64,000 nt of DNA from Alphaproteobacteria bacterium (GTDB taxonomy: Bacteria; Pseudomonadota; Alphaproteobacteria; Ferrovibrionales; Ferrovibrionaceae). The DNA is taken from assembly GCA_026126165.1 (NCBI GenBank), contig JAHCJR010000004.1, forward strand, positions 1 through 64,000, in the 5' to 3' direction. The notes below the pieces were generated by a model. That model was not told where the DNA came from. It saw only the letters and a program-made list of their open reading frames with translations, and made no database searches. This document shows, piece after piece, positions 5,208-41,892 of this stretch; position 1 is the stretch's first letter, and each line of letters begins with the position of its first letter. The position numbers and the translations under genes were made by a program.

Positions 5208-6071
5208 ATGGCGGCAATCATGAGCCTGCGCGAGGCCATCGCGGAGAATGTCCGGGACGGCGACGTGGTGGCGATGGAGGGTTTCACCCATCTCATTCCT
5301 TTCGCCGCCGGGCATGAAGTGATCCGCCAGGGGCGGCGCAACCTGACCCTGGTCCGGATGACGCCGGATATAATCTACGACCAGATGATCGGGATGGGGC
5401 TGGCGAACCGGCTGGTTTTCTCCTGGGGCGGCAATCCGGGCGTCGGCTCGCTGCACCGTTTCCGCGACGCGGTCGAGAATGGATATCCGGCGCCGCTTGC
5501 CGTGGAGGAACACAGCCATGCCGACATGGCCGCGCGCTACCAGGCCGGCGCTTCCGGCCTGCCTTTCGCCGTCCTGCGTGGCTATGTCGGGTCCGACCTG
5601 CCGAAATGGAACGATCGCATCCGGACGGTGAGCTGCCCCTTCACCGGCGAAGTGCTGGCCGCGACCCCGGCCATCAATCCCGATGTCGCCGTCATCCATG
5701 CCCAGCAGGCGGACAAGAGGGGCAACGTGCTGATCTGGGGGATCGTCGGCATCCAGAAGGAGGCGGTCCTGGCGGCGCGGCGGGCGGTCGTCACGGTGGA
5801 AGAGGTGGTCGAGCGTTTCGATGCCACGCCAAATGCCTGCATCCTTCCGCACTGGGCGGTGAGCGCGGTGGCGGTTGTTCCCGGCGGGGCGCACCCCTCC
5901 TACACGCATGGCTACTACGACCGGGACAACGCTTTCTGCAAAGCCTGGGACGGCATATCCCGCGACCGTCGGAAGTTCGCGGACTGGATGGAGAAACATG
6001 TGCTTGGAACCCGCGATTTCGCCGGGTTCCGTCGAAGCATCGGACTGGCGGAAGCGGGAGCGGCATCATGA
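5208..6071 (+). CDS. CoA-transferase family I, subunit A (GctA/IpdA-like)
   Basis: A 287-residue alpha subunit of a class I (glutaconate/3-oxoacid type) CoA-transferase. Diagnostic stretches are EGFTHLIPFAAGHE near the N-terminus, VFSWGGNPGVGS, and AARYQAGASGLPF, the last two being CoA-transferase A hallmarks. I start at the ATG at 5208 because GGGGAGG lies seven bases upstream; the ORF extends 34 codons further without a better ribosome site. It overlaps the B subunit by ATGA. With the B subunit it would move CoA between carboxylic acids. Related IpdAB proteins instead hydrolyse a ring in steroid degradation, so transferase versus hydrolase is open. Confidence 0.88.
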   Translation: MAAIMSLREAIAENVRDGDVVAMEGFTHLIPFAAGHEVIRQGRRNLTLVRMTPDIIYDQMIGMGLANRLVFSWGGNPGVGSLHRFRDAVENGYPAPLAVEEHSHADMAARYQAGASGLPFAVLRGYVGSDLPKWNDRIRTVSCPFTGEVLAATPAINPDVAVIHAQQADKRGNVLIWGIVGIQKEAVLAARRAVVTVEEVVERFDATPNACILPHWAVSAVAVVPGGAHPSYTHGYYDRDNAFCKAWDGISRDRRKFADWMEKHVLGTRDFAGFRRSIGLAEAGAAS

Positions 6072-6856
6072 GCGAGTCCGGCTATACCCTGAACGAGATC
6101 ATGACGGTCGCCGCGGCGCGGCTGCTGCGCAACGGGCAGGTCTGTTTCGTCGGCATCGGCCTTCCCTCCGCCGTCGCCAACCTGGCCCGCCTCAGTCACG
6201 CGCCGGAACTGGTGCTGATCTATGAAAGCGGCACCATCGGCGCCAAGCCGGACGTGCTGCCGCTATCGATCGGGGATGGCGAACTGGCGGAGACCGCCGA
6301 TGCGGTGGTCGCCGTGCCGGAGATCTTCCGCTACTGGCTGCAGGCCGGACGGGTCGATATCGGCTTCCTGGGTGCGGCGCAGATCGACCGCCATGCCAAC
6401 ATCAACACGACGGTCATCGGACCCTATGATCGGCCGAAGACGCGCCTTCCCGGCGCCGGGGGCGCGCCTGAAATCGCTGCCGCCGCCGGCGAGGTCTTCA
6501 TCATCCTGCGCCAGAGCAAGAGGACTTTTGTCGACCAGCTCGATTTCATCACCTCGGCCGGCCATCTCACCGGTGGCGATTCGCGTGCGCGCAGCGGCGC
6601 GCGCGGCCGCGGTCCGCAAGTCATCGTCACCGATCTCGGCATCCTCAGGCCAGATCCGGAAAGCAAGGAACTGGTCATGACCAGCCTGCATCCGGGCGTC
6701 ACGGCGGACCAGGCGCGCGCCGCGACCGGGTGGAAACTGCGCGTGGCGGACCGGCCTGAAGTGACCGAGCCGCCGCGTCCGGAGGAGCTCGAGCTGCTGC
6801 GCGCGCTGCATGCGCGCACGGCGCGCGCACACGGCGCCGCGCCGGCGGAGGGATAA
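6068..6856 (+). CDS. CoA-transferase family I, subunit B, with catalytic Glu
   Basis: A 262-residue beta subunit coupled to subunit A by an ATGA overlap. The motif LIYESGTIG places Glu53 where family I CoA-transferases carry the glutamate that forms the acyl-enzyme anhydride and CoA thioester. The stretch GAAQIDRHANINTTVIG is also typical of GctB-like subunits. It is followed after 26 bases by an acyl-CoA synthetase, so two routes to an acyl-CoA are encoded in one operon. The substrate acid is unknown. The second A/B pair in this window (12008-13566) differs at exactly the catalytic position. Confidence 0.88.
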   Translation: MSESGYTLNEIMTVAAARLLRNGQVCFVGIGLPSAVANLARLSHAPELVLIYESGTIGAKPDVLPLSIGDGELAETADAVVAVPEIFRYWLQAGRVDIGFLGAAQIDRHANINTTVIGPYDRPKTRLPGAGGAPEIAAAAGEVFIILRQSKRTFVDQLDFITSAGHLTGGDSRARSGARGRGPQVIVTDLGILRPDPESKELVMTSLHPGVTADQARAATGWKLRVADRPEVTEPPRPEELELLRALHARTARAHGAAPAEG

Positions 6857-8455: not shown

Positions 8456-9607
8456 TCAGGCGGACCGGCGGGGCATGGCCTTGGCCCGGCGCTCGAGCCA
8501 CCAGCCATACTGCTTCGGCCAGAGGCTCCAGGCGGTCTCCTCGTCCTCGAGCGCGAGCGCCGCCCTTCCTACCCAGTGCGGATCGAACAGCGCCTCGCGG
8601 GCGATGGCGACCAGATCCGCCTGGCCAGCGGCGAGCGCGGCTTCCGCCTGCTCCGGCGTGAGGATCAGTCCGACCGCCTGCGTCATCACGCCGGCATCGC
8701 GGCGCAGGCGTTCCGCATAGGGAAGCTGGAAGCCCGGACCGCGCGGCACGCCGGCCGCGGTCGCCGGACCGCCGATGCCGCCGGACGAGCAGTCGATGAC
8801 GTCGACGCCGCGCGCCTTCAGCTCGCCAGCCAGCGCCAGCGAATCCTCGATCTCCCAGCCACCTTCGATGCCATCGACCGACGAGATGCGGAAGAAGAGC
8901 GGCTTGCGCTCCGGCCAGACGGCGCGTACGGCCTCCGCCGTCTCCAGGGCAAAGCGCATGCGGCCGGCACGCTCGCCGCCATAGGCGTCGTTGCGCCTGT
9001 TCGAGATCGGCGACAGGAAGGTATGGGTCAGATAGCCATGCGCGCCGTGCAGTTCCAGCACCTCGAAGCCGGCCGCATCGGCCCGCTTCGCCGCGTCGGC
9101 GAAAGCCTGCCGGATGGCGGCAATCTCGTCGAGGCGCAGTTCATGGGGCATGAGCCAGCCTTCGGCCACCGGCACGGAAGAGGCCGCGACGACCTGCCAG
9201 GGACGCTCGCCGCGCGCGATATCGGCATCGTTCATCGGGCCGTTGCCGTGCCAGGGGCGCTGCATGCTCGCCTTGCGCCCGGCATGGGCGATCTGGATGC
9301 CAGGCGCCGCGCCCTGCGCGGCGATAAAGGCGGCGACCGGCTTCAGTGCGGCGGCATGGGCGTCGGACCAGATGCCGAGATCGCCGTGAGTGATGCGCCC
9401 GCGCGCCTCGACGGCGGCGGCCTCGCTGAAGACGAGCCCGGCACCGGCGATGGCGAACTGGCCGAGATGGACCAGATGCCAGGCGTCCGCCATGCCATCC
9501 TTGGCCGAATACTGGCACATCGGCGAGATGACGACGCGATTGCGAAGCGTGAGGCCGCGAATGGTGAGGGGCTGGAACAGCCGTGATCTGGCGGAAGTCA
9601 TGGTCAC
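8456..9607 (-). CDS. NADH:flavin oxidoreductase, old-yellow-enzyme family (YqjM-like)
   Basis: A 383-residue FMN ene-reductase. SPMCQYSA carries Cys31, the residue typical of the YqjM/thermophilic class, and ELHGAHGYL gives the substrate-binding pair His187/His190, followed by [15 protein letters not shown]. Such enzymes reduce alpha,beta-unsaturated carbonyl compounds. I take the GTG at 9605-9607, in a GTGA overlap with the upstream hydroxylase stop, because AGGAG lies eight bases before it; an ATG two codons later is possible. It is the last gene of a leftward operon with a molybdenum hydroxylase, which suggests a role in reducing an intermediate of the same pathway. Confidence 0.92.
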
Positions 9608-11928
9608 ACAGCCTTCTCCTGGATTGCCCGCCAGACCTTCTCCGGCGTGGCGGGCATGTCGATATGCTCGATGCCAAGCGGGGCGAGCGCATCGCAGATC
9701 GCATTGATGACCGCCTGCGGCGCGCCGACCGAGCCGGCCTCGCCCGCGCCCTTCACGCCGAGCGGGTTGGTCCGGCAGGGCACCTCGTTGAGCTGGAAGT
9801 CGATATCGGGCAGGTCATCCGCGCGCGGAAGGGTGTAATCCATGAAGGATCCGGTGAGAAGCTGGCCGCTCTCGGCGTCATAGAGCGTGCGCTCGAGGAG
9901 GGCCTGGCCGATGCCTTGGCCGATGCCGCCATGCACCTGTCCTTCGACGATCAGCGGGTTGATCACGCGGCCCATATCGTCGACCACATGGTAGGCGACC
10001 ACCGCGACCCGGCCGGTTTCCGGATCGATTTCCACTTCCGCGATGTGGCAGCCGTTGGGAAACGTACCCTGCGCGGTGATCTTCGCGTCCGAATCGAGGC
10101 CGCCATCCAGGTCCTTCGGGCGGCGCGCGGGATCGCGCGCGGCGGCGGCCACATCCAGAATGCCGATCTTGCGGTCCGTGCCGGCGATGCGGAACTGGCC
10201 CGAGCCGAACTCGATATCGACCGGCGCCGCTTCCAGCAGGTGGCCGGCCATGACCCGGCCCTTCTCGATCACCTGTTCGGAAGCGCCGAGAATCGCCCCG
10301 CCCTCGGCATAGAGCGAGCGGGCTCCTCCGGTGCCGCCACCGGTCCTGATCAGGTCGCTGTCGCCCTGGTGGATGACGATGCGCTCGATCGGCACGCCGA
10401 GCTGGTGCGAGATGAGCTGGGTATAGCCTGTCTCGTGGCCCTGGCCGTTCGACTGGGTTCCGACCAGCACATGCACCAGCCCGTCCTCGCCGAAGCGGAT
10501 CTCTGCGCGCTCCTCGGTCGGGCCGGCGGTCGCTTCGAGATAGCAGGCGATGCCGAGGCCGCGAAGCCGGCCCCGCGCCTTCGCCGCCGCCTTGCGTGCC
10601 GCAAGCCCGGAATGATCCGCCGCCTTGAGGGCGCGGTCCAGGTTCTCGGCGAAGGCGCCGGAATCGTATTTGAGGCCGGTCGGCGTCTGGTAGGGGAAGG
10701 CATCGGCGGGGATGAAATTGCGCCGGCGCAGCTCGATGGCGGAAATGCCAAGCCGCCGCGCCGCCACCTCGATCAGCCGCTCGACCAGATAGTTGGCTTC
10801 CGGCCGGCCGGCGCCGCGATAGGCATCGACCGGCACCGTGTTCGTCAGCACGCCCTTGACCGCGGCATGGATGATCGGAATGCGATATTGCACCGAGAGC
10901 ACCCTGGTGCCCGCCACGGTCGGGATGAAGGGCGCGAAGGTCGAGACATAGCCGCCGAGATTGGCAAGGGTGCTGACGCGCAGCGCGAGGAAGCGTCCCT
11001 GATCGTCGAGAGCCAGTTCGCCCCTGGTCAGGTTGTCCCGCCCCTGGGTGTCGGAGAGGAAGGCATCGCCGCGTTCGCTGGTCCATTTCACCGGCCGGCC
11101 GATCTTGCGCGCGGCATAGCAGGCCAGTACCTGCTCGGGATAGAGATAGATCTTCATGCCGAAGCCCCCGCCCACGTCCGGCGTCACGACGCGGACCTTC
11201 TCCGGCGGGATCTTGAAGATCGCCTCGGCGAGCAGGCGCTTGAGCAGATGCACGCCCTGGGTATTGGTGTGGAGCGTCAGCCGCTCCGTCGCCGGATCGT
11301 ATTCCGCCAGCGCGGCCCGGGTCTCCATCGAGGCCACGACGACGCGGTTGTTGACCACCTCCAGCGCGACCACCTGATGCGCGCCGGCAAAGGCGGCCTC
11401 TGCCGCCGCCGGGTCGCTGTTCTGCCAGTCGAAGCAAAGATTGCCGGGCGCCGCCTCGTGGATCAGCGGCGCCTCGGGGGAAAGCGCGCGCCGCATGTCG
11501 GTGACCGGCGGCAGTTCCTCGTAATCGACGATCACCGCCTCCGCCGCATCGCGCGCCTCGGCCAGGCTTTCGGCCACGATCATCGCCACCTGGTCGCCGA
11601 CATGGCGCACCTTGTCGCCGGCGAGCGCCGGGCGCGGCGGATCGGCGCGCCCCGAACCATCGCGGTTCTTGAGCGGGATGATGCAGGGAAGCGGCGGGAT
11701 GCCGTCCGCCGCGAGGTCGGCGGCGGTGAAGATGGCGAGCACGCCAGGCATGGCGCGGGCGGCTTGCGTGTCGATGCCCCTGATCCGGGCATGGGCATGC
11801 GGCGAGCGGAGGATGAAGGCGTGGGCCTGACCCGGACGCGTGATATCGTCGGTATAGCGGCCGGTGCCGGTGATGAACCGGCGGTCCTCGATCCGGCGCA
11901 GGGGCTGGGACGCTCCGAACTTCTCCAT
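9604..11928 (-). CDS. Xanthine dehydrogenase-family molybdopterin-binding subunit (CoxL-like, form II)
   Basis: A 774-residue large subunit of the xanthine oxidase family. It starts [15 protein letters not shown], contains GRYTDDI, the Moco loop [26 protein letters not shown] near residue 365, and the catalytic Glu730 in [13 protein letters not shown]. The CODH form I signature AYxCSFR is absent, so CO oxidation is not supported; family members hydroxylate aromatic or N-heterocyclic carbons or aldehydes. The ATG at 11926-11928 starts the conserved opening. No FAD-binding medium subunit and no 2Fe-2S small subunit is encoded anywhere in the window, which is unusual because the large subunit normally passes electrons to them. 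It lies between the second CoA-transferase pair and the ene-reductase. Confidence 0.9.
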
Positions 11929-12007: not shown

Positions 12008-12736
12008 TCAGGCGGCGAAGGCGCTGGCCGCAAACTCGGGATAGGTTTCGGCGATCTCCTCGCGGATCGGCCCGCGCAGCAGCGCGAGCGTCGCCTCGTC
12101 CGGAACCGGCGTGGACGGCACCTGCTCCGGCCGGTCGAAGGCAAAACCCGTATTGTCCAGAACTTCCTCGATACCGTGCCCCGGATGGATCGAACGCAGC
12201 GCGAAACGTCCGCGTGCGCGGTCGAAATCGAACAGCGCGAGATTCGTCACCAGGGCATGGGGGCCACCCCGGCGCGGGACGTTGGGCGGGCTCGTGCCCG
12301 GGGCGCTGATGAAGTCGACCCTGTCGACCAGAACGCGCCGCGTATGTTCCTCCCGGAACAGGATCACGCGCGGCACGAGGAAATAAAGGTAGGCCGAGCC
12401 GAAGGAGCCCGACCAGCGCACCTCGCTTCGCGGGTAGCCGCCGGTGCCCACAAGGTTGATGTTGCCGGCGCCGTCGATCTGGCCGCCGCTGAGAAAGAAG
12501 GCGTCGATTCTTCCCTGCGCGGCGCAGTCGAAAAGCTCCACGCCTCCATTGGTGAAGAAGTTGTTGCGCAGCGAGCGGAGAATGGAGACGCGCATTCCGC
12601 CATGCGTGCGACGTCGCGCCAGCAGCGCGGCGGACCCGGGAACCGGAGAGGATGCGCCGACCGCGACATGCCGGCAGCCATCGAGCAGGCCGGCAATCAC
12701 CGCAATCAGCAGCTCGCGTTCGTTGCAGGGCGTCAT
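12008..12736 (-). CDS. CoA-transferase-like subunit B lacking the catalytic Glu
   Basis: A 242-residue protein with the family I CoA-transferase beta fold: VAVGASSPVPGSAALLA, FFLSGGQIDGAGNINLVG and RVLVDRVDFISAPG. Where the paralogue at 6068-6856 has YESG with Glu53, this protein reads VSILRSLRNN around residues 50-59, so the usual glutamate nucleophile is missing. Either a different residue in the A subunit acts, as reported for the IpdAB ring-cleaving hydrolases, or the protein has lost activity. It overlaps subunit A by ATGA, and the ATG at 12734-12736 is well placed. I would call it a CoA-transferase-family hydrolase candidate rather than a transferase. Confidence 0.82.
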   Translation of the reverse strand: MTPCNERELLIAVIAGLLDGCRHVAVGASSPVPGSAALLARRRTHGGMRVSILRSLRNNFFTNGGVELFDCAAQGRIDAFFLSGGQIDGAGNINLVGTGGYPRSEVRWSGSFGSAYLYFLVPRVILFREEHTRRVLVDRVDFISAPGTSPPNVPRRGGPHALVTNLALFDFDRARGRFALRSIHPGHGIEEVLDNTGFAFDRPEQVPSTPVPDEATLALLRGPIREEIAETYPEFAASAFAA

Positions 12737-13566
12737 TCCGCCGCCTCCGCCGGGGCCCCGCTTTCGAGAAAGTCCGCCATGAAGGCGGCAAACCCCTCGT
12801 CGCTGCGCGCGGCCCGCACGTAGGCAGCGAGGGTCCGGCCATCGGGGCCGTAGCTGTCCCACAATCCGACCGGCCAGGCCCCCTTTCGTACCTCGGCGAT
12901 CCCCTCGACATAGAGCGCGGGCAGGGTGCCCGCGGCCCAGCGTTCGTCATCGAGCAGGCTTTCCTCCTGGATGCGTTCGACGCTGACCAGCGTGCGCGCC
13001 GATGCCTGCGCCATGGTGATCAGCTCGCGCCGGCGGCCGATCCAGACATTGCCCTCGCGGTCGGCGAGCGGTGCATGGAACAGCGCCACGTCCGGCGCGA
13101 TCGCGGGCAGCAGCACGATGGGCTCGCCGGCGGCGAAGGGATTGTCGATCACCTTCCAGTCGCTGCGATGCTTGAGCAGGTCGCTGCCGACGATGCCCCG
13201 CAGCGGCATGAAAGGCAGTCCTTTCTGCGCCGCCTGCAAGGCGGCATGGATGGCGGGACAGGTGGCATCCAGCAGGCGGATGCTGCCGCGGCGCACCGCC
13301 TCGACGAAGCGCGGCCCGGTCCCGAACTCGTCCAGGGTCACGGCCGAGGATTCGACGCTCGCGACCGCACCGGCGCCGATCAGCATGTCCGCCTGCAGCC
13401 CGCTGGTCGGCAGGCAAACGAGATGCAGGTCCCTGACGCCGCGTCGGATCAGGGCGGCTGTCGCCGCCATCGCCACCCCGGCATAGTTCGCCGGAATGGC
13501 AAGTCTGGTTCCGTCGGCAATGCCCGCGACCAGCGCGTCGATATCGGCACGGATCAACTGCTGCAT
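12733..13566 (-). CDS. CoA-transferase-like subunit A (IpdA-like)
   Basis: A 277-residue alpha subunit partnered with the preceding B subunit. Landmarks are the N-terminal DGTRLAIPANYAGVAMA, VCLPTSGLQADMLIGAGAV, the central PFMPLRGIVGSDLL (compare LPFAVLRGYVGSDL in the first pair) and APDVALFHAPLADREGNVWI. It is encoded downstream of the MFS carrier, 55 bases after it, and ahead of the hydroxylase and ene-reductase. The only acidic candidates near the usual active-site region are Glu72 in VASVESSA and the DEF that follows. The reaction is not assigned. Confidence 0.82.
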   Translation of the reverse strand: MQQLIRADIDALVAGIADGTRLAIPANYAGVAMAATAALIRRGVRDLHLVCLPTSGLQADMLIGAGAVASVESSAVTLDEFGTGPRFVEAVRRGSIRLLDATCPAIHAALQAAQKGLPFMPLRGIVGSDLLKHRSDWKVIDNPFAAGEPIVLLPAIAPDVALFHAPLADREGNVWIGRRRELITMAQASARTLVSVERIQEESLLDDERWAAGTLPALYVEGIAEVRKGAWPVGLWDSYGPDGRTLAAYVRAARSDEGFAAFMADFLESGAPAEAAE

Positions 13567-13621: not shown

Positions 13622-14881
13622 TCACTTCTCCCCCCTGAGCGCCCGGATGGTCAGGAACGGGGTGAGCCCGCCCAGCATGCAGAGGAAGCTCAGCACCATC
13701 ACCCATTCGTAGCCGCCGGTCAGGTCGTGCACCAGCCCGCCCCAGATCGAGCCCAGGGCGCTGCCGATGCCGCCGGCCAGCGTGATGCAGCCGAAAATCG
13801 AGGCGGCGTTCGGTCCGCGGAAGATCTGCATGGCCGTCGCGGCAACCAGCGGTCCCCGCGAGCCGAGGGAGGAGCCCATGAGGAAAACGAAGGCGCCGAG
13901 CAGCCAGACATTGGGGAAGTGGCCGAGCAGCCACATGCAGAGGATGCCGAGAATGGTCGTGGCATAGCTCAGCATGACGGAAAGCCGCCGTCCGATCACG
14001 CCGTCGAGCCAGCCGAAGGTGATCATGCCGAGGGGCATGAAGATACCCGATAGGCCCCAGGCCGAGGCGGCCTGCAACGGCGTGAAGCCGATCTCGACGA
14101 GGTAGGCGACCGCCTGCACCGAAAGCGAGACCATGCCCTGGGAGGTAAAGAAAAAGACGCAGAACAGCCCCCAGAAGGGCAGGCTGCGCAGTACCTTGCC
14201 GGGCGTCCAGAGCCCGGCGCCGGCATGGCGTTTCTGGCCCTCCTGCCGCCAGGCGGGATGGCCGGCTCGGATGCGCCTCCACGGCAGCAGCAGGGCGGGC
14301 ACGAGCAGCAGCAGGGTGAGCCCGCCCAGGATCCGGTAGGTGTCGCGCCAGCCGAAATGCTGGATCAGCAGTTCGGTAAAGGGGACGAAGAGCAGCACGC
14401 CGACGCCGAAGGAGGAGAAGATGAGCGCCGAGTAGAAGGACTGGCGTGTCAGGAACCAGCGGTTGACGAGCGCCGTCCCCGGCACGTTGCCGACCGCGGC
14501 GAGGCCGAAGCCGATGCCGAGGCCGATGGCAAGCTGGAGGTGCCAGATCGCACTTGCCGAACCGGCGAGCAGCAGGGCCAGCCCCATGCCGGACAGACCG
14601 ACCCCATAGAGCAGGCGCGGGCCAAGGCGATCGAAGAGCAGGCCGGTGAGCGGCGAGGCGAGGCCGGAGAGCAGCAAGGCCGAGGAATAGATCGTGGTGA
14701 TGGCCGCCCGGTCGCCGCCGAACTCCGCCGAGAGCGGCAGAAGAAACACCACGAAGCCTTCCATGAGGCCGCGGCCGGTGCAGCCCATGAAGAAGCAGAA
14801 TCCCAGCACCGTCAGCGCCAGCCGGTTGGCGGAGCGCAGCTTTTCTTCGTCGGTCCGCGCCGTCGCGTCGGGCTCCGCCAT
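13622..14881 (-). CDS. MFS transporter (monocarboxylate/OFA-type)
   Basis: A 419-residue inner-membrane carrier with about twelve hydrophobic segments, a short charged N-terminal tail, the conserved loop LLFDRLGPRLLYGVG between TM2 and TM3, and a longer hydrophilic central loop around RRIRAGHPAWRQEGQKRH. The layout matches the major facilitator superfamily branch that takes up monocarboxylates and other organic acids. It lies eight bases after the acyl-CoA dehydrogenase stop and ahead of the CoA-transferase-like pair. It is therefore the natural uptake system for the locus substrate, probably an organic acid. Confidence 0.88.
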   Translation of the reverse strand: MAEPDATARTDEEKLRSANRLALTVLGFCFFMGCTGRGLMEGFVVFLLPLSAEFGGDRAAITTIYSSALLLSGLASPLTGLLFDRLGPRLLYGVGLSGMGLALLLAGSASAIWHLQLAIGLGIGFGLAAVGNVPGTALVNRWFLTRQSFYSALIFSSFGVGVLLFVPFTELLIQHFGWRDTYRILGGLTLLLLVPALLLPWRRIRAGHPAWRQEGQKRHAGAGLWTPGKVLRSLPFWGLFCVFFFTSQGMVSLSVQAVAYLVEIGFTPLQAASAWGLSGIFMPLGMITFGWLDGVIGRRLSVMLSYATTILGILCMWLLGHFPNVWLLGAFVFLMGSSLGSRGPLVAATAMQIFRGPNAASIFGCITLAGGIGSALGSIWGGLVHDLTGGYEWVMVLSFLCMLGGLTPFLTIRALRGEK

Positions 14882-14889
14882 CGCCCGTC

Positions 14890-16044
14890 TCAGCCGCCGC
14901 GCGCTTCACGCAGCATGGCGCGGCCGATGACGATCTGCTGGATCTGGCTGGTGCCTTCGTAAAGCCGGAAGATGCGGACGTCGCGATAGAACCGCTCCAC
15001 CGGATAGTCGGCGATGTAGCCGGAGCCGCCATGGATCTGCACCGCCCGGTCGGCGACGCGTCCGACCATCTCCGAGGCGAAGTACTTGCAGCAGGCGGCA
15101 TCGGTGGCGATTTTCTCGCCGCCATCGAAGCGTCGCGCGGTCTCGCGCACCATGGCGAGCGCGGCGAAGGCTTCGGTGCGGCTGTCCGCCAGCATGGCCT
15201 GGATAAGCTGGAACTCCCCGATCGGCTGGCCGAATTGCCGGCGCTCCAGCGCAAAGGTGACGCTTTCGTGGATCAGCCGCTCGGCGGTCCCGCAGCACAG
15301 CGCCGAAATGTGCAACCGGCCGCGATCGAGCACCTTCATCGCCGTCTTGAAGCCCTGTCCTTCCCTTCCGCCAATGATGTTGCGGGCCGGCACGCGTGCA
15401 TCCTCGAAGATGACGTCGCAGATATGGGCGCCCTTCTGGCCCATTTTCACGTTCGGACGGCCGAGCGAAATGCCGGGGGTGCGCGCATCGACGATGAAGG
15501 CGCTGATCCCTCCGGCGCCCTTGTTGTTCGGATCGGTGCGCGCCATCACGGTGAAGACGCCGGCGGTCGGTGCATTGGTGATGAAGCGCTTGGTCCCGTT
15601 CAGGACATAATCCTCGCCATCCCTGACCGCGCGGGTTTTCAGGCTGGCCGCGTCCGAACCGGCTTCGGGTTCGGTCAGGCAGAAGGAGGCGATCAGTTCG
15701 CCGGAGGCGATGCGCGGCAGCCACTCGCGTTTCTGCTCCTCGCTGCCATCGATCAGCAGTCCCTGGCTGCCCAGCCCGTTGTTGGTGCCGATCAGCGAGC
15801 GGAAGGCGGGCGATGCCCAGCCGAGCTCGCGCACGATCTCGACCTCCGCCTGCATGTCGAGGCCGAGGCCGCCATAGGTTTCCGGAATGGACATGCCGAA
15901 CAGCCCCATCTCCGCCATTTCGCGGCGTACCTGTTCGGGAATGCTGTCGGCCTCGGCCACCTCGGCTTCCAGCGGCACGAGCCGCTCGCGGACATAGCGG
16001 CGTACCGTGTCGACCAGTTGCGCGAGCGTGTCCCTGTCCGTCAT
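14890..16044 (-). CDS. Acyl-CoA dehydrogenase
   Basis: A 384-residue FAD flavoprotein. [14 protein letters not shown] and [11 protein letters not shown] are the FAD/substrate signatures, and the catalytic base is Glu363 in [10 protein letters not shown], the position used by short- and medium-chain dehydrogenases. It removes alpha,beta hydrogens from an acyl-CoA and passes electrons to ETF. It is the first gene of the leftward operon that continues with the MFS carrier, CoA-transferase-like pair, Mo hydroxylase and ene-reductase. The chain length preferred cannot be told from sequence. Confidence 0.93.
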
Positions 16045-33727: not shown

Positions 33728-34879
33728 TCACCAGCCGAGATGGCGGCTCGCCAGTTCCTTCATGATCTCCTCGGCGCCGCCGCCGATGGCGTTCACCTTT
33801 ACTTCCCGGTAGATCCGCTCGGATTTGGGCCCGCGCATGAAGCCGCTGCCGCCCAGTATCTGCACCGCCTCGCTGGCGACGAAGGCCATCGTCTGCGTTG
33901 CCTGGTTCTTGAGCATGCAGATATCGGCGATCGGGTTCTCGCCCTGCATGACCCGCCAGGCGGTCTGTTCCAGATAGGCCTGGGTGGCGCCGATCCGCAT
34001 CGCCATGTCCACCAGTTTGTGCCGGATCACCTGATGCTGCACCAGGGCCCGGCCGAAGGTCCGCCGCTCCCGTGCCCAGGCCAGCGCCTCCTCGTAGGCG
34101 GCGCGCGCCATGCCGTTGCAGCTCGCGGCCATGCCGATCCGCTCGCCATTGAAGTTCAGCATGATGGCGCGGAAGCCGGCATTCTCCTCGCCGATCAGGT
34201 TGGCGACCGGCACATGGCAATCATCGAAATGGAGGCTTGCGGTGTCCGACGCCCACCAGCCCATCTTTTTCAGCGGCGTGCGGGTGAAGCCCGGCCGGTC
34301 TCGCTCGATCAGCAGCAGGGAGACCCCGCCCATGCCCTCGCCGCCCGTGCGGACCGCGACCGTGTAGAAATCCGCCCGCATACCGGATGTGATGAAGGTC
34401 TTGGCTCCGTTCACCACGTAATGATCGCCCTCGCGCCGGGCAGTGGTGCTCAGGTTCGCCACATCCGAGCCGCCGCCGGGCTCGGTGATGGCGAGCGCGC
34501 TGATCTTCTCGCCCCGCAGCACCGGGCCCAGGACGCGCGCCTTCATGTCCGCGCTGCCGAGCCGGGCGATCGGCGGGCAGCCGATGGTGTGGCTCTGCAG
34601 GCTGGCGGAGAGGCCGCCGGCGCCGGCGCGCGCCAATTCCTGCGCCGCGACGATGGCGTGAAACAGATCGCCCGGGACGCCGCCATCCTCCTCGGGAAAG
34701 CCGAGGCCCAGCAGCCCGACCTCGGCCGCGCGCCGGTAGAGATCGCGGGGAAACTCGCCCGCCTCGTCCCATGCTTCCACATGCGGCATGATCTCGCGTT
34801 CGACGAAGCGGCGCATGCTGGCCTGGAAGGCCCGATGCTCCTCGCGATAGAAGGGTCCGACGCCGAACTCCAGTGTCAT
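33728..34879 (-). CDS. Acyl-CoA dehydrogenase (IVD/LCAD-like active site)
   Basis: A 383-residue dehydrogenase. FAD signature ALAITEPGGGSDVAN; FITSGMRADFYTV; C-terminal NAIGGGAEEIMKEL, where Gly replaces the SCAD-type Glu, so the base is more likely the Glu in LNFNGERIGMA. Such enzymes act on branched or long acyl-CoAs. The start (34877-34879) overlaps the GNAT stop by ATGA. It follows the carboxylase alpha and GNAT genes in the leftward block and precedes the TetR-controlled crotonase. Probably acts in the same terpenoid or branched-chain pathway. Confidence 0.92.
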   Translation of the reverse strand: MTLEFGVGPFYREEHRAFQASMRRFVEREIMPHVEAWDEAGEFPRDLYRRAAEVGLLGLGFPEEDGGVPGDLFHAIVAAQELARAGAGGLSASLQSHTIGCPPIARLGSADMKARVLGPVLRGEKISALAITEPGGGSDVANLSTTARREGDHYVVNGAKTFITSGMRADFYTVAVRTGGEGMGGVSLLLIERDRPGFTRTPLKKMGWWASDTASLHFDDCHVPVANLIGEENAGFRAIMLNFNGERIGMAASCNGMARAAYEEALAWARERRTFGRALVQHQVIRHKLVDMAMRIGATQAYLEQTAWRVMQGENPIADICMLKNQATQTMAFVASEAVQILGGSGFMRGPKSERIYREVKVNAIGGGAEEIMKELASRHLGW

Positions 34880-35385
34880 TTCCTTTCGTCCTCCGCCTGA
34901 TCGAGCAGGGCCATCAGGATCATGTCCTCGGTCCGGCCATCGAGCCGGCGCGCCGCAACGCGGCGCCCCTCCTCGCGAAACCCGAGGCGTCGATAGAGCC
35001 GGATCGCCGGCATATTGCCGGCGACGACCTGCAGTTCGATGCGCTCGATGCCGCGCCCGCGCGCCTGGGCAATAGCGGCTTCCAGCAGCCGGCGCCCGAT
35101 GCCCCGGCCGCGATGGGAGGCGGCGACACCGATGCCGAGCATGCCGACATGGCGGCAGCCTGCACGGCCATCCCGCTGGATGTCGCACCAGCCGCAGACC
35201 TCGCCGCCATCGAGCGCCAGCAGACAGGGCAGGCCGTCGGCGATCAGCGCCGCGTGAAAGGCGCGGCATTCCTCCAGAGGCGGCGCCTCGACCAGGGCAA
35301 GCCCCGACCGTTCCCGCGCCACCCGATCCAGGCAGGCCCGGGCGCCCGCCAGATCCTCGGCCCGGAAGGGGCGGATCTCCACCAT
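34876..35385 (-). CDS. GNAT family N-acetyltransferase
   Basis: A 169-residue GNAT protein with the acetyl-CoA loop SHRGRGIGRRLLEAAIAQA and the C-terminal NMPAIRLYRRLGFREEG, both standard RimI-like features. It is squeezed between the biotin carboxylase and dehydrogenase genes with a one-base stop/start overlap upstream (TAATG on the minus strand) and an ATGA overlap downstream, so it is translated with catabolic enzymes. What it acetylates is unknown; protein or CoA-pathway regulation would fit the context, but nothing in the sequence shows it. Confidence 0.87.
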   Translation of the reverse strand: MVEIRPFRAEDLAGARACLDRVARERSGLALVEAPPLEECRAFHAALIADGLPCLLALDGGEVCGWCDIQRDGRAGCRHVGMLGIGVAASHRGRGIGRRLLEAAIAQARGRGIERIELQVVAGNMPAIRLYRRLGFREEGRRVAARRLDGRTEDMILMALLDQAEDERK

Positions 35386-37358
35386 TACCCTGCCGCCGAC
35401 TCCGGCGTGATCTCGACCAGGAGCTGCCGGGTGGCCACCTGGTCGCCCTCGCGCACCTCCACGCGGGCGACCCTGCCCGCCACCTGGGCCGCGATCTCGT
35501 GCTGCATCTTCATCGCCTCCAGAACCAGCAGGCGTTCCCCGCGCCGGACCGTCGCGCCCGGACGGGCCAGCACCGTGACGATGCGCCCGTTCATCGGCGC
35601 GGCGACGCGGCCGTCACTGCCGGCCTCGGCGCGGCCACGGGGCCGGTGCAGCGTCTCCTCGAAGCAGGCGCTCTGCCGGCCGCAGGCGAGGAACATTCGC
35701 TCGCCGCGAAACAGGAAGCGCGCATCGCGCCGATGGCCGTCGATCTCGAAGCGCACCCGGTCCGCGCCGATCTCGACCAGGCGCACCTCCCGGCTGGTCT
35801 CCCCTTGACTGACACGCATGCGCCGCGGCTCGAGCATGCTGACCCGCAGATCGGCGCGGATGCCCTCCGCCTCGAGCCGGAGCGGCCAGTCCGCCGGCCC
35901 GCTGGATCGCCAGCCCGCGGCGAGCGCATCGGGGTTCCGGGTCCGCTGCCAGGCCAGCAGCGCGGCGGCGAGGACCGGCAGGGTCTCGTCCGCCGTGCCG
36001 CCGTCCAGAACGGCCGGCGGAAAATGGCGAGCGATGAAGCCGGTTGTCGCCGCGCCCTTGGCGAATTCCTCGTGCGCAAGCATGTCGCAGAGAAAACGGC
36101 GGTTGGTGGCCGGACCGAAAACAGCCGTGTCCTCGAGCGCCCGGATCAGCCGTCGCCGCGCCTCTTCGCGGCTGCGGCCATGGGCGATGACCTTGGCGAT
36201 CATCGGGTCATAATAAGGCGTAATCTCCTGCCGCGACTTCAGGCCATGATCGATGCGGATGCCGGGGCCTTCGGCCGGCGCCCAGAGTTCGACCCAACCG
36301 CTCTGCGGCAGGAAGCCGCGTGCCGGGTTCTCGGCATAGAGGCGTGCCTCGATGGCGTGACCCTGCAGCCGGAGCTGATGCTGCTCCAGCGGCAGGCGAT
36401 GGCCGGCGGCCACGTCGATCTGCAACGCCACCAGATCAAGCCCGGTGATCATCTCCGTTACCGGATGTTCCACCTGCAAACGGGTGTTCATCTCGAGGAA
36501 GTAGAATCTTCCCGATCCGTCGAGCAGGAACTCAACCGTGCCCGCGCCGACATAATCGATGGCGCGCGCCGCCTGCACCGCCGCCTCGCCCATCGCCTCG
36601 CGCAGCTCGGTCGAAACGGCAGGCGAGGGCGCTTCCTCAATCACCTTCTGGTGCCGGCGCTGGATGGAGCAGTCCCGTTCGCCCAGATGAATGACGTTGC
36701 CGTGGCGGTCGGCGAAGACCTGTATCTCCACATGGCGCGGCTCGGCGACGGCCTTCTCGAGGATCAGTTCGCCGGAGCCGAAAGCGTTTTCGGCTTCCGA
36801 ACGGGCGCCGGCAAGGGCACGTGCCATTTCCCCGGCGCCCGCGACGAGCCGCATGCCGCGCCCGCCGCCGCCTGCCGCCGCCTTGACCATGACGGGATAG
36901 CCGATGCGCGCCGCCTCGGCCAGCATCGTTGCCTCCGACTGGTCCTGCCCTTGATAACCCGGCACGCAGGGCACCCCTGCCTCGATCATCAGCCGCTTGG
37001 CCGCCGCCTTGTTCCCCATGGCGCGGATCGCCGAAGGCGGCGGGCCGATGAAGACGTGGCCGGCTTCGTTGCAGGCACTGGCGAAAAGCTCGTTCTCCGA
37101 CAGGAAGCCGTAACCCGGATGGATGGCGTCCGCGCCACTCCGCCGCGCCGCTTCTAGGATGGCGTCGATGTTCAGGTAGCTCTGCCGCGCCTCCAAGCCG
37201 CCGATCGCCACCGCCTCGTCGCAGGCATCCACATGCAGCGCCCCGGCATCCGCATCGCTGTAGATGGCAACCGAGCGCAGGCCGAGTGCGCGCACGCTTC
37301 GCGCCACGCGGCAGGCGATTTCGCCACGATTGGCGATCAGGACCTTGCTGAAACTCAT
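35385..37358 (-). CDS. Acyl-CoA carboxylase, biotin-carboxylase alpha subunit (AtuF/LiuD-like)
   Basis: A 657-residue biotin-dependent carboxylase subunit. The biotin carboxylase domain (1-445) has KAAAGGGGRGMR for ATP, EKAVAEPRHVEIQVF and EMNTRLQVEHPVTE; a middle linking domain follows; the biotinyl domain ends the protein with the biotin lysine Lys617 in LEAMKMQHE. It uses ATP and bicarbonate to carboxylate biotin for the beta subunit at 39377-40996. Gene order with its neighbours equals atuB-C-D-E-F of Pseudomonas, so geranyl-CoA carboxylase is a good candidate; methylcrotonyl-CoA carboxylase (LiuD) is the alternative. Confidence 0.92.
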   Translation of the reverse strand: MSFSKVLIANRGEIACRVARSVRALGLRSVAIYSDADAGALHVDACDEAVAIGGLEARQSYLNIDAILEAARRSGADAIHPGYGFLSENELFASACNEAGHVFIGPPPSAIRAMGNKAAAKRLMIEAGVPCVPGYQGQDQSEATMLAEAARIGYPVMVKAAAGGGGRGMRLVAGAGEMARALAGARSEAENAFGSGELILEKAVAEPRHVEIQVFADRHGNVIHLGERDCSIQRRHQKVIEEAPSPAVSTELREAMGEAAVQAARAIDYVGAGTVEFLLDGSGRFYFLEMNTRLQVEHPVTEMITGLDLVALQIDVAAGHRLPLEQHQLRLQGHAIEARLYAENPARGFLPQSGWVELWAPAEGPGIRIDHGLKSRQEITPYYDPMIAKVIAHGRSREEARRRLIRALEDTAVFGPATNRRFLCDMLAHEEFAKGAATTGFIARHFPPAVLDGGTADETLPVLAAALLAWQRTRNPDALAAGWRSSGPADWPLRLEAEGIRADLRVSMLEPRRMRVSQGETSREVRLVEIGADRVRFEIDGHRRDARFLFRGERMFLACGRQSACFEETLHRPRGRAEAGSDGRVAAPMNGRIVTVLARPGATVRRGERLLVLEAMKMQHEIAAQVAGRVARVEVREGDQVATRQLLVEITPESAAG

Positions 37359-37366
37359 TGCGCCCC

Positions 37367-38182
37367 CTACTCGACCGGTTCGACCCAGGCTGGCCTGCGC
37401 TTCTCGACGAAGGCGCGCGTGCCCTCGCGCCCTTCCGGCCCGCGCACGGCCGAGATGAAGAGGTCGGCGGCGCGATCCAGCAGCATCTCGGCCGGGGTCT
37501 CGGCAATGGCCGAGAGCAGCGACTTGGTCGCGGCGATGGACCCGGGTGCCGCGTTCATGAGCTGGCCCAGCACCTTCCGCAGGATCGCTTCCGCATCCTC
37601 CTGTCCGCTGGCGAGGTAATGGACCAGGCCGAGTTCCTTCGCCCTGGGCCCGTCGATCCGTTCGCCCGTGAGGGCATGGCGGCGCGCCTCGGTCATGCCG
37701 ATGCGCGCCACGACGAAGGGCGCGATCTGCGCCGGGACCACGCCAAGCGTCACCTCCGGCATGGCGAAGCGTGCATTCTCGTGGGCGATGGCGATATCGG
37801 ACACGCAGACCAGACCGAAACCGCCGCCCATCGCGGCTCCCTCCACGATCGCGACCACCGCCTGCGGCGCGGCATCGACTTTGCGGCAGAGCGCCCCGAA
37901 GGACCGGTTGCGCGCCCGCATCGCATCCTCGCCCGGCGGGGCATCTCCGGCGCGCGCCATGTCCTTGATGTCTCCGCCGGCACAGAAGATACCGCCGGAA
38001 CCGCGCAGGATCACGACGCGGATCGCCCGATCGTCTCGGATCGCATCGAAGACCAGATTGAGCTCGCGCACCATCTGGCTGTTCATGGCATTGCGCGCTT
38101 CGGGGCGATTGAGCGTGACGGTGAGGACCGCGCCGCGCCGCTCCAGGGCAATGGCTTCGGTCGCGGGCAGGCTTGCGGTCAT
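37367..38182 (-). CDS. Enoyl-CoA hydratase (AtuE/LiuC-like)
   Basis: A 271-residue crotonase. GIFCAGGDIKDMA, GAAMGGGFGLVCVSDIAIA and MPEVTLGVVPAQIAPFVV are the pattern of bacterial isohexenylglutaconyl- and methylglutaconyl-CoA hydratases, including the Gly where other hydratases have the first catalytic Glu. The second Glu (in MPEV) is kept. It hydrates the 3-methyl(en)glutaconyl-CoA-type product of the neighbouring carboxylase. It sits between the dehydrogenase and the alpha subunit gene, eight bases from the latter. Confidence 0.9.
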   Translation of the reverse strand: MTASLPATEAIALERRGAVLTVTLNRPEARNAMNSQMVRELNLVFDAIRDDRAIRVVILRGSGGIFCAGGDIKDMARAGDAPPGEDAMRARNRSFGALCRKVDAAPQAVVAIVEGAAMGGGFGLVCVSDIAIAHENARFAMPEVTLGVVPAQIAPFVVARIGMTEARRHALTGERIDGPRAKELGLVHYLASGQEDAEAILRKVLGQLMNAAPGSIAATKSLLSAIAETPAEMLLDRAADLFISAVRGPEGREGTRAFVEKRRPAWVEPVE

Positions 38183-38192
38183 CCAGGTCTCC

Positions 38193-39344
38193 TCAGTTCG
38201 CGGGGGTCATGCCCATATGGCGGGCGATGATCGAGAGCATGATTTCATCGGCGCCGCCTCCGATGGAGGTCAGGCGCCCGTCGCGAAAGGAGCGGCTGAT
38301 CCGGTTCTCGCTCATGTAGCCCATGCCGCCCCAGTATTGCAGGCAGGCATCACTCGCCTGTCGCGACAGCCTGCCGGCCTTGAGCTTGGCCATGGAGGCG
38401 AGCCGCGTCACATCCTCGCCCGCCATGTGCAGCTCCGCCGTGCGGTAGGTGAGGGCACGCAGGGCCTCGATCTCGGTCTGCAACTCGGCCAGCCGGAAAT
38501 GCACCACCTGGTTGTCGAGGATGGGGCGGCCGAATGCCCTGCGATCCCGCGTATATTCGATGGTGGCCTGGATGATACGCTCGAGGCTGAGCAGGACCTT
38601 GGCCGCCGCCCACAGCCGCTCTTCCTGGAATTGGCGCATCTGGTACATGAAGCCCATGCCTTCGGCGCCGATGCGGAAACGCTGCGGCACCCGCACGTCG
38701 TCGAAGAAAATCTGCGCCGTGTCGGACGAGCGCATGCCAAGCTTGTCCAGCTTGCGCGCCACCTGCACACCCCTCGTCTTCATCGGCACGCAGATCAGCG
38801 TCTTGTTCTTGTGCACCGGACCATCGCCCGTATTCGCCAGCAGACACATCCAGTCCGCCTGCGTCCCGTTCGTCGTCCACATCTTGCCGCCGCTGATCAC
38901 GTAATCATCGCCGTCCCGCCGCGCCACCGTCCGGATTGAGGCGACATCCGATCCGGCGCCGACCTCCGACACGCCAAGACAGGCCACATACTCGCCGCTG
39001 ATCGACGGCGCCAGAAACTCGCGCCGCACCTCGTCCGAGCCGAACCGCGCCAGCGCCGGCGTCGCCATGTCCGTCTGAACGCCGATCGCCATCGGAACGC
39101 CGCCGCAATTGATCCGCCCCAGCTCCTCCGCCATCACCAGAGCGTAGGAATAGTCGAGACCCTGACCGCCATACTCCACCGGCTTGTTGATGCCGAGAAA
39201 GCCAGCCTTCCCCATCTTCCCGAACAGCTCGTGCGCCGGGAATATCCCAGCCTCCTCCCACGCATCGACATGCGGGTTGATCTCCGTCTCGATGAACCGC
39301 GACAAGGATCGCCGCAGCTCCTCATGCTCGGGGGTGAATTTCAT
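38193..39344 (-). CDS. Acyl-CoA dehydrogenase, AtuD-like (citronellyl-CoA dehydrogenase candidate)
   Basis: A 383-residue dehydrogenase opening MKFTPEHEELRRSLSRFIE. CLGVSEVGAGSDVAS replaces the usual TEPxxGSD; KMWTTNGTQADWMCLLANT and LTSIGGGADEIML are features I recognise from citronellyl-CoA dehydrogenases of acyclic terpene clusters. The presumed base is the Glu pair in MRQFQEERLW. I start at the ATG at 39342-39344, preceded by AAAGGAT; the longer frame is a shadow. It lies between carboxylase beta and hydratase genes, exactly as atuD does. An isovaleryl-type dehydrogenase is the alternative. Confidence 0.9.
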   Translation of the reverse strand: MKFTPEHEELRRSLSRFIETEINPHVDAWEEAGIFPAHELFGKMGKAGFLGINKPVEYGGQGLDYSYALVMAEELGRINCGGVPMAIGVQTDMATPALARFGSDEVRREFLAPSISGEYVACLGVSEVGAGSDVASIRTVARRDGDDYVISGGKMWTTNGTQADWMCLLANTGDGPVHKNKTLICVPMKTRGVQVARKLDKLGMRSSDTAQIFFDDVRVPQRFRIGAEGMGFMYQMRQFQEERLWAAAKVLLSLERIIQATIEYTRDRRAFGRPILDNQVVHFRLAELQTEIEALRALTYRTAELHMAGEDVTRLASMAKLKAGRLSRQASDACLQYWGGMGYMSENRISRSFRDGRLTSIGGGADEIMLSIIARHMGMTPAN

Positions 39345-39376
39345 CGCCGTATCCTTTCCATCTCTCGCAAGCGGTC

Positions 39377-40996
39377 CTACATGCGCGCGACGCCGAAGGT
39401 ATTGGGCCTGAGCGGCCTGATCTCCGCCTCCCGGCAGATCGACAGGCACCAGGCCAGAACCTTGCGGCTGTCGCGTGGATCGATCAGCCCGTCGTCCCAG
39501 AGCCGGGCGGTGGCGAAGAGGGCGGAGCTTTCCACCTCCATCCGCCGCACGATCTTCTCCTCCATCGCCTTCAGCATGGCGGGATCGGCCTGCTGGCCGC
39601 CGCGCCGGAGTTTCTCCTCGGTGACGATCGACATGACTTTTGCCGCCTGCTCGCCGCCCATGACCGCGATGCGGTTGTTCGGCCAGGCGAAGATGAAGCG
39701 CGGATCGTAGGCGCGTCCGCACATGCCGTAGTTTCCGGCGCCGAAGGAGGCGCCGATATGCAGCGTGATCTGCGGCACGGTCGCATTCGCCACGGCCTGG
39801 ATCATCTTCGATCCGTGCTTGACGATGCCGGCCTGTTCCATCTCGCGGCCGACCAGGTAGCCGGTGGTGTTCTGCAGATAGATGATCGGCGTGTTCGACT
39901 GGCAGCAGAGCTGGATGAACTGCGCCGCCTTGGTGGCGCCATCGGCATCTATCGGGCCGTTATTGCCGACGATGCCGCAGGCATGGCCGGCGATGGCGGC
40001 GTGGCCGCAGACGGTGTGGACGCCATAGAGGCTCTTGAAATCGAGAAAGTCGGATCCGTCCACCAGCCGGGCGATCACCTCGCGCACATCGTAGGGCCGG
40101 CGATAGTCGACCGGCACCACGCCCGCCAGTTCCGAGGGGTCATAGAGCGGCTCGGCGAAATCCCGCGGCGGTCGGAAGGGAAGCTGCTCGTTCCAGGGCA
40201 GCTTTGCCATGATCTCGCGCGCCAGCCGGATGCCGTCGGCATCGTCCTCGGCGAGATATTCGGCGACGCCGGAAACAGTGGCATGCATTTCCGCCCCGCC
40301 CAGCTCCTCGTCGGTTGCGATCTCGCCGGTGGCCGCGCGCAGCAGCGGCGGGCCGGCGAGGAATACCTTGGCCTTGCCCTTGACCATCACGACATAGTCG
40401 GAGAGACCGGGCAGATAGGCGCCGCCGGCGGTGGAGGAACCATGCACCACCGTGACCTGCGGGATGCCGGCCGCCGACATGCGCGCCTGGTTGGCGAAGC
40501 CGCGGCCGCCTTCGACGAAGATCTCTGCCTGGTAAAGCAGGTTGGCGCCGCCCGATTCGACAAGGCGCACCATGGGCAGGCGGTTCTCGAGCGCGATCTG
40601 CTGGGCGCGCAGGCTCTTCTTCAGGCCCATGGGCGCCGTGGTACCGCCCTTGATGGCGCTGTCGTTGGCGGTCACGACGCAGCGCACGCCGGAGACGATG
40701 CCGATGCCGACGATGCCCCCGCCGCCCTGGATTCCGTCCGCCCCGTCATCGTCGTGCATCCTGTAGCCGGCGAGCGTCGAGAGTTCGAGCCAGGGCGCGC
40801 CGGGATCGAGCAACAGGGCAAGCCGCTCGCGCGGCAGGAGCTGGCCGCGCTTCCGGAAGGTCGCCGCCTTGGCGTTCGAGGCATCGCGCACCCGCCCCTC
40901 GAGGGCGCGGAACTCGTCGATCAGCACCAGCATCTCGGCGCGGTTCCTGTTGAACTCCTCCGAACGCGGATCGATGCGGCTTTCGATGGCAGGCAT
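39377..40996 (-). CDS. Acyl-CoA carboxylase, carboxyltransferase beta subunit (AtuC/LiuB-like)
   Basis: A 539-residue carboxyltransferase. The N-half has RERLALLLDPG and VRLVESGGANLLYQ, with GGAYLPGLSDYVVMV; the C-half has NNGPIDADGATKAAQFIQ, LQNTTGYLVGREME and SFGAGNYGMCGRAYDPRF, forming the oxyanion holes. This is the MCC/GCC type (about 535-540 residues), which carboxylates a 3-methyl-2-enoyl-CoA. A Gly/Phe difference in the acyl pocket separates geranyl- from methylcrotonyl-CoA enzymes; I could not place that residue without an alignment. The ATG at 40994-40996 gives the standard start. Confidence 0.93.
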   Translation of the reverse strand: MPAIESRIDPRSEEFNRNRAEMLVLIDEFRALEGRVRDASNAKAATFRKRGQLLPRERLALLLDPGAPWLELSTLAGYRMHDDDGADGIQGGGGIVGIGIVSGVRCVVTANDSAIKGGTTAPMGLKKSLRAQQIALENRLPMVRLVESGGANLLYQAEIFVEGGRGFANQARMSAAGIPQVTVVHGSSTAGGAYLPGLSDYVVMVKGKAKVFLAGPPLLRAATGEIATDEELGGAEMHATVSGVAEYLAEDDADGIRLAREIMAKLPWNEQLPFRPPRDFAEPLYDPSELAGVVPVDYRRPYDVREVIARLVDGSDFLDFKSLYGVHTVCGHAAIAGHACGIVGNNGPIDADGATKAAQFIQLCCQSNTPIIYLQNTTGYLVGREMEQAGIVKHGSKMIQAVANATVPQITLHIGASFGAGNYGMCGRAYDPRFIFAWPNNRIAVMGGEQAAKVMSIVTEEKLRRGGQQADPAMLKAMEEKIVRRMEVESSALFATARLWDDGLIDPRDSRKVLAWCLSICREAEIRPLRPNTFGVARM

Positions 40997-41025
40997 GGCA
41001 CTCCTGGCGCGCGGGGCGCTTGGCT

Positions 41026-41892
41026 TCAATCCTCGCTCAGGACCTTCGGCGAGCGGGACAGGTGAAACCCGTCGAAGGCGGGGCCGGGCTCGCGGCGGGG
41101 CAGCGGCACGCTGGGCTTCGTATTCGGCACCGCGCCATCCACCCTGAGCGTGACGCCGGAGATGAAGGCCGCCGCCGGCGAGAGCAGGAAGACGATCGCC
41201 GCCGATACCTCGGCCTCGGTCCCGAGCCGGCCGAAGGGGGAAAGGAAGCGCAGATTGCGGATATGTTCGCGCATGCTTTCCGGGTAATGGTCCATGCCCG
41301 AAGAGGCAATCCAGCCGGGTGCCACCGCGTTGACGCGGACATTGGCGAGCGACCATTCGCAGGCCGCCGTCTCGGTGAAGTTGACCATTCCGGCACGCGC
41401 GGCCCCGGAATGTCCCATGCCGGGCATGCCATGCCACATGTCGGCGACGATATTGACGATGGCGCCGCCATGCTGCTGCATCCATTGCAGGAAGCATTCG
41501 CGCGCCATCAGGAAGCCGCCGGTGAGGTTGGTGCGGACCACCGTTTCCCAGCCCTTCTGGCTGATGGCGCGCAGCGGCGCGGAGAACTGACCGCCCGCGT
41601 TATTGACCAGATGGTCGATGCGGCCCAGCGCGCCGAGCACCTCGCCGATCAGCGCGCGCACCTGCTCCTCCTCGCGGATATCGCAGGGAAATGCCTGCGC
41701 CCGGCCGCCCGCGGCCTCGATCTCCTCGCGCACCTGATCGAGCTTCTCAGCCTTGCGGCCGACAAGCGCGATGGCGGCGCCGAGCGAGGCCAGCTCATGA
41801 GCGGTGCAGCGGCCGATGCCGCTGCCGCCGCCGGTGACGATGGCGACCTGGTTCGCGAACAGTCCGGGACGAAAGACGGACTGATAGGACAT
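41026..41892 (-). CDS. SDR oxidoreductase, PECR/AtuB-like, with Ser-xxx-Arg in place of Tyr-xxx-Lys
   Basis: A 288-residue short-chain dehydrogenase. The cofactor site TGGGSGIG is at 20-27 and NNAG at 97-100. The usual catalytic YxxxK is replaced by Ser162-GAA-Arg166 in MGHSGAARAGMV. The same HSGAARAG phrase occurs in peroxisomal trans-2-enoyl-CoA reductase, so reduction of an enoyl-CoA is more likely than oxidation of a plain alcohol. It leads the leftward carboxylase operon, in the position of atuB in Pseudomonas. A MerR-type operator lies 124 bases upstream of its ATG. Confidence 0.9.
   Translation of the reverse strand: MSYQSVFRPGLFANQVAIVTGGGSGIGRCTAHELASLGAAIALVGRKAEKLDQVREEIEAAGGRAQAFPCDIREEEQVRALIGEVLGALGRIDHLVNNAGGQFSAPLRAISQKGWETVVRTNLTGGFLMARECFLQWMQQHGGAIVNIVADMWHGMPGMGHSGAARAGMVNFTETAACEWSLANVRVNAVAPGWIASSGMDHYPESMREHIRNLRFLSPFGRLGTEAEVSAAIVFLLSPAAAFISGVTLRVDGAVPNTKPSVPLPRREPGPAFDGFHLSRSPKVLSED

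Follow-up and report, generated by a model that had tools for sequence, protein, structure and literature searches.

An invariant cysteine in subunit A of a CoA-transferase-like gene pair that lacks the catalytic glutamate

The stretch of DNA that we analysed, 64,000 nucleotides long and hereafter called the window, carries two gene pairs of the PF01144 fold, which together with one longer protein make up the five PF01144 matches of the source assembly (81% complete). The pair on the minus strand has no catalytic glutamate in its B subunit (the Glu-less pair), and the first pair, on the plus strand, serves as comparison:

12733 to 13566, minus strand: subunit A of the Glu-less pair, 277 amino acids, PF01144, studied with AlphaFold2 and Foldseek
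12008 to 12736, minus strand: subunit B of the Glu-less pair, 242 amino acids, PF01144, with its ATG start at 12736 and its end at 12008
5208 to 6071, plus strand: subunit A of the first pair, with His at the position matching Cys103
6068 to 6856, plus strand: subunit B of the first pair, with the catalytic-type Glu53 in YESG (codon 6224 to 6226)

With the corrected gene limits, the stop codon of A and the start codon of B in the Glu-less pair share the letters ATGA. Both proteins match PF01144 above the cut-off, and in relatives A lies beside B wherever the contig permits; with these matches and a pairing that is conserved in more than 100 genomes, both genes are real. Single-chain AlphaFold2 models reached a pLDDT of 95.1 and a pTM of 0.92 for A, and 85.4 and 0.87 for B. 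In Foldseek searches the nearest folds were AibA, GctA and IpdA for the A model and AibB, IpdB and GctB for the B model, with AibA and AibB the best match in each case. The first pair (5208 to 6856) is of the ordinary transferase type and has a gene for an AMP-binding CoA ligase behind it. An Rfam scan of the window gave no matches.

The sequence-only reading of this DNA had contrasted the Glu53 of the first B subunit with an ILRS motif at the matching place in the second, and both observations hold in our alignments. The site in question is:

12572 to 12583, minus strand: codons of I52-L53-R54-S55 of subunit B, counted from the ATG at 12736, at the site of the transferase catalytic Glu (YESG)

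Among 84,980 species genomes scanned, B had 416 relatives, of which we kept 80; with genomes from other searches added, the final alignments held 108 distinct sequences of B and 107 of A. Three plasmid sequences were left out of some of the alignments. We looked for a conserved active-site glutamate in B that might have been misplaced by a less careful alignment, and found none in columns 48 to 62 across the 108 distinct homologues. Column 53 is Leu in 103 of them and Ile in 4, column 54 is Gly in 97 and column 55 is Ser in 101. The same alignment gives Gly in the glutamate column of IpdB-type sequences, matching the published Gly57-beta (PMC5380842). The absence of the glutamate is thus a trait of the whole family, more than chance or a single odd sequence. 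Moreover, the loop of about 24 residues that follows YESG in transferase B subunits is absent from the Glu-less B in the alignment. The CoA-side motif GGGQIDG...NIN...R..GS.GS is retained, and in the form GGGQIDG...N.N...R..GS.GS it is common to GctB. Two other conserved glutamates of B were considered as stand-ins: Glu67 sits in a helix past the lost loop and Glu130 in a conserved basic stretch aligned to QHEKRR of GctB, so that neither is a clear substitute. In CtfAB, replacing the glutamate by Ser or Ala kills activity, and replacing it by Asp gives a hydrolase (PMC12400318). Since B lacks the catalytic glutamate, classical family I transferase activity is unlikely for the Glu-less pair.

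Subunit A offers a different candidate for the working residue. Three of its codons are of interest here:

13258 to 13260, minus strand: Cys103 of subunit A (T102-C103-P104), aligned to Glu105 of IpdA and present in 107 of 107 distinct A sequences
13351 to 13353, minus strand: Glu72 of subunit A, present in 107 of 107 distinct A sequences, not at the position of IpdA Glu105
13327 to 13329, minus strand: Glu80 of subunit A, near-invariant (106 of 107 distinct A sequences)

Two independent alignments, one pairwise and one profile-based, place Cys103 on Glu105 of IpdA, which, also in view of PDB titles, we take to be a catalytic or active-site residue. Indeed, the title of PDB entry 6coj names IpdAB E105A with COCHEA-CoA. 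Cys103 occupies the aligned place of this mutated residue and is therefore probably the key residue. The motif TCP occurs in 114 of 114 A genes, and the profile alignment puts Gln at this position in GctA and Gly in AibA. In the AlphaFold2 single-chain model a strand spans residues 97 to 100 and a helix residues 103 to 114; Cys103 is the first residue of this helix in the model, a setting that appears well suited to a reactive thiol. Fourteen polar residues of A are conserved at 98% or more among the 107 distinct sequences; besides Cys103, these are Glu72, Glu80, Thr102, Asp129, Arg134, Asp136, Asp159, His164, Asp169, Asn173, Tyr219, Asp242 and Tyr249. Glu72 had been put forward in the sequence-only reading as a replacement carboxylate. 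This proposal did not survive the comparison with IpdA: the residue is invariant, but both alignments give the place of IpdA Glu105 to Cys103, and we retain Glu72 only as a possible partner. Nonetheless, an invariant cysteine need not be catalytic, because Cys56B of AibAB, which replaces the glutamate there, can be mutated without loss of activity (PMC7756340).

The state of the A position is coupled to the presence of the glutamate in B. We compared 78 distinct A/B pairs, taken from the relatives, from plasmids and from a genome sample across the class. Wherever B has the glutamate, A has His (9 pairs) or Asn (4 pairs), 13 of 13, and the glutamate occurs with no other A residue; where B lacks it, A has Cys in 54 pairs, Glu in 8, Ala in 2 and Gly in 1. 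The glutamate column of B is Leu, Ile, Val or Gly in all 54 Cys-type pairs. A Fisher test of A state against B glutamate gives 4.5e-15, a value that is overstated, as the states follow clades. Indeed, the glutamate-bearing pairs form one clade (95/95), and with each state confined largely to a clade, few independent events lie behind the link; there may have been a single switch between glutamate and no glutamate, followed by several outcomes. Three actinobacterial pairs with Cys in A and a glutamate one residue early in B were scored by column as Glu-less, which is debatable. The family provides a clear test of how chemistry changes within one fold: at the A position, His or Asn accompanies the B glutamate, and Glu, Cys, Ala or Gly its absence.

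A tree built from the A subunits gives the Cys103 family a long branch of its own (support 100/100), separate from the clades of IpdA (100/100) and of Gct/Pca (95/95). AibA, itself a very long branch, joins L123 (96/84) and not the Cys103 family. The nearest row to the family is L103, which also has Cys; it is a long branch that the program flagged as unsure. Other Alphaproteobacteria have pairs that carry the IpdA signature, DEG in A and Gly or Ser in place of the glutamate in B (L104 from genome G002, L126 to L129 and L206), and one of these genomes belongs to the window's own family. The Glu-less pair also turns up in a metagenome assembly labelled Bordetella parapertussis (L019), where B is about 68% identical; this species label looks doubtful.

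The Glu-less pair lies in a run of genes on the same strand:

14890 to 16044, minus strand: acyl-CoA dehydrogenase, upstream
13622 to 14881, minus strand: MFS transporter of the monocarboxylate/oxalate-formate type, adjoining A
9604 to 11928, minus strand: molybdenum large subunit of the xanthine-dehydrogenase/CO-dehydrogenase type, downstream of B
8456 to 9607, minus strand: flavin oxidoreductase of the Old Yellow Enzyme type, last gene of the run

No iron-sulphur or FAD subunit genes adjoin the molybdenum subunit gene; six Fer2_2 proteins are encoded elsewhere in the genome. Further along the window (33731 to 41892), a run of genes for an enoyl-CoA hydratase, a biotin carboxylase, an MmdA-like carboxylase, acyl-CoA dehydrogenases and an SDR resembles leucine or acyclic-terpene degradation. 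Across the relatives, an acyl-CoA dehydrogenase is found near the pair in 16 of 119 loci (the best NCBIfam model is the Desulfococcus glutaryl-CoA dehydrogenase, below cut-off), and a molybdenum hydroxylase in 11 of 119. In 32 of 111 loci the next gene after B encodes a family III CoA-transferase of the CaiB type, mostly within 51 bases. All 41 CaiB-type sequences compared have an invariant Asp in the motif IVDLGTG, at the place expected for the catalytic Asp of family III CoA-transferases. These proteins score best against models of dicarboxylate CoA-transferases, in every case below cut-off. The operon of the window has no CaiB gene. On plasmids of Paracoccus, Cereibacter and Pseudosulfitobacter (L116, L117 and L120) the pair is part of a conserved set of catabolic genes, which also encodes an IclR regulator, an ABC importer, CaiB, a 2-hydroxyacid dehydrogenase, a fuculose-phosphate-aldolase-like class II aldolase, an FGGY kinase, a ThDP enzyme and a molybdopterin oxidoreductase (a BisC/TorA-like reductase); a literature search on this cluster found nothing relevant. 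Operon context varies widely, and we found no single substrate that fits all neighbourhoods.

On balance, the pair is probably a non-transferase member of the GctAB/IpdAB/AibAB group, a heteromeric acyl-CoA enzyme that uses Cys103 of A. Such an enzyme would have given up family I CoA-transferase chemistry while keeping the CoA-side motif in B, and its most likely reaction would be C-C cleavage of an acyl-CoA that bears a second carbonyl or carboxylate. Substrates that need CoA first might receive it from elsewhere: CaiB lies behind B so often that in many genomes another gene can provide the CoA transfer, although not visibly in the operon of the window. For the reaction itself we tentatively favour an IpdAB-like hydrolytic (retro-Claisen) step, with Cys103 as nucleophile or acid/base. 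IpdAB had already been cited in the sequence-only reading as the precedent for a new hydrolase, and an enzyme that hydrolyses a beta-diketone-CoA is one possibility. The parallel fits in that IpdB, too, is Glu-less, and IpdAB showed no transfer of CoA between short-chain acyl substrates (PMC5380842); it falls short in that the Glu105 position is Cys103 here and the family lies outside the IpdA clade.

Ranked second by a small margin, and possible rather than probable, is an AibAB-like decarboxylation, in which CO2 would leave a dicarboxylic enoyl-CoA of the glutaconyl-CoA type and Cys103, as proton donor, would protonate the dienolate. AibAB is Glu-less and decarboxylates (PMC7756340), AibA and AibB are the best structural matches of our models, Glu72 of A aligns with a glutamate of AibA, and the glutaryl-CoA-dehydrogenase-like and dicarboxylate-type CaiB neighbours (both below cut-off) could make and desaturate a dicarboxyl-CoA. 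However, most loci have no acyl-CoA dehydrogenase, the tree does not join the Cys103 family to the long-branched AibA, and AibA has Gly at the Cys103 position while Cys56 of AibB sits in the opposite subunit. The CaiB neighbours also suggest dicarboxylic substrates for an intramolecular CoA-transferase, in which the second carboxylate of the substrate would stand in for the glutamate via an internal anhydride. Here the precedent is ThnP, a family I enzyme without the conserved active-site glutamate that moves CoA within one dicarboxylate, with an internal anhydride proposed (PMC11659651). Such a mechanism leaves the invariance of Cys103 unexplained, and ThnP is from a different subgroup (Cat1) of family I; we consider it unlikely.

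The next alternative in our ranking, and likewise improbable, gives Cys103 a direct role: the pair might be a simple acyl-CoA thioesterase, or a cysteine-linked transferase with an acyl-S-Cys intermediate. A cysteine at the start of a helix would be a plausible nucleophile in the model, and a single-residue change makes CtfAB a hydrolase (PMC12400318); on the other hand, we found neither a Cys-type member nor a precedent for a Cys nucleophile, structural or biochemical, in the CoA-transferase fold in the open-licence papers that we searched. Finally, the loss of the known nucleophile together with its loop could mean that the pair is catalytically dead or purely regulatory. Against this stand the many polar residues held at 98% or more (14 in A and 17 in B, the latter among 108 distinct B), the strict coupling of A and B genes across the Proteobacteria and the CoA-side motif, which B has kept; we consider it very unlikely.

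Public records annotate the genes of the pair as CoA-transferases, although the defining residue of this reaction is missing from the family; a large set of these annotations is probably wrong. A tentative wider reading sees in the family a separate clade of the CoA-transferase fold, common among Proteobacteria, whose working residue would have shifted from a glutamate in B to a cysteine in A and would now serve thiol-dependent acyl-CoA chemistry. The open-licence papers that we searched do not describe such chemistry for this fold. Glu-less members are known to specialists; the clade with Cys in A appears to be undescribed in the same literature.

Among known systems, the ordinary family I CoA-transferases of the GctAB/PcaIJ type, including the first pair of the window, share the PF01144 fold, the CoA-side motif of B and the gene pairing; they keep the B glutamate together with His, Asn or (in GctA) Gln in A, whereas the Glu-less family keeps neither. 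The actinobacterial plasmid pairs L119, L121 and L125 have Cys at the same A position, in an SCC motif, but are about 34-37% identical, have VEGAT in B with the glutamate one residue before its canonical place, and are followed by a CoA-ligase-type gene. These pairs (plasmids of Nocardioides JS614 and Mycolicibacterium chubuense NBB4) adjoin genes for phosphosulfolactate synthase or alkene monooxygenase, and could represent a further Glu-shifted variant, one that belongs to alkene/coenzyme M metabolism. AibA/AibB, the 3-methylglutaconyl-CoA decarboxylase of Myxococcus xanthus, resembles the pair most closely in structure in both subunits and has a Glu-less B; it differs in having Cys56 of AibB at the glutamate position, where the Glu-less family has Leu or Gly and carries its cysteine in A, at a place that is Gly in AibA. 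IpdAB (ScdL1L2), the hydrolase that cleaves the ring of COCHEA-CoA in steroid degradation, shares the fold, the A/B pairing, a B subunit without the glutamate (Gly57-beta in RHA1) and a functional residue at the aligned position of A. This residue is Glu105 in IpdA and Cys103 in the Glu-less pair (107 of 107), which moreover belongs to a separate clade, has lost the loop after the glutamate and has no steroid gene context. We would not file the Cys103 family under IpdAB, AibAB or GctAB.
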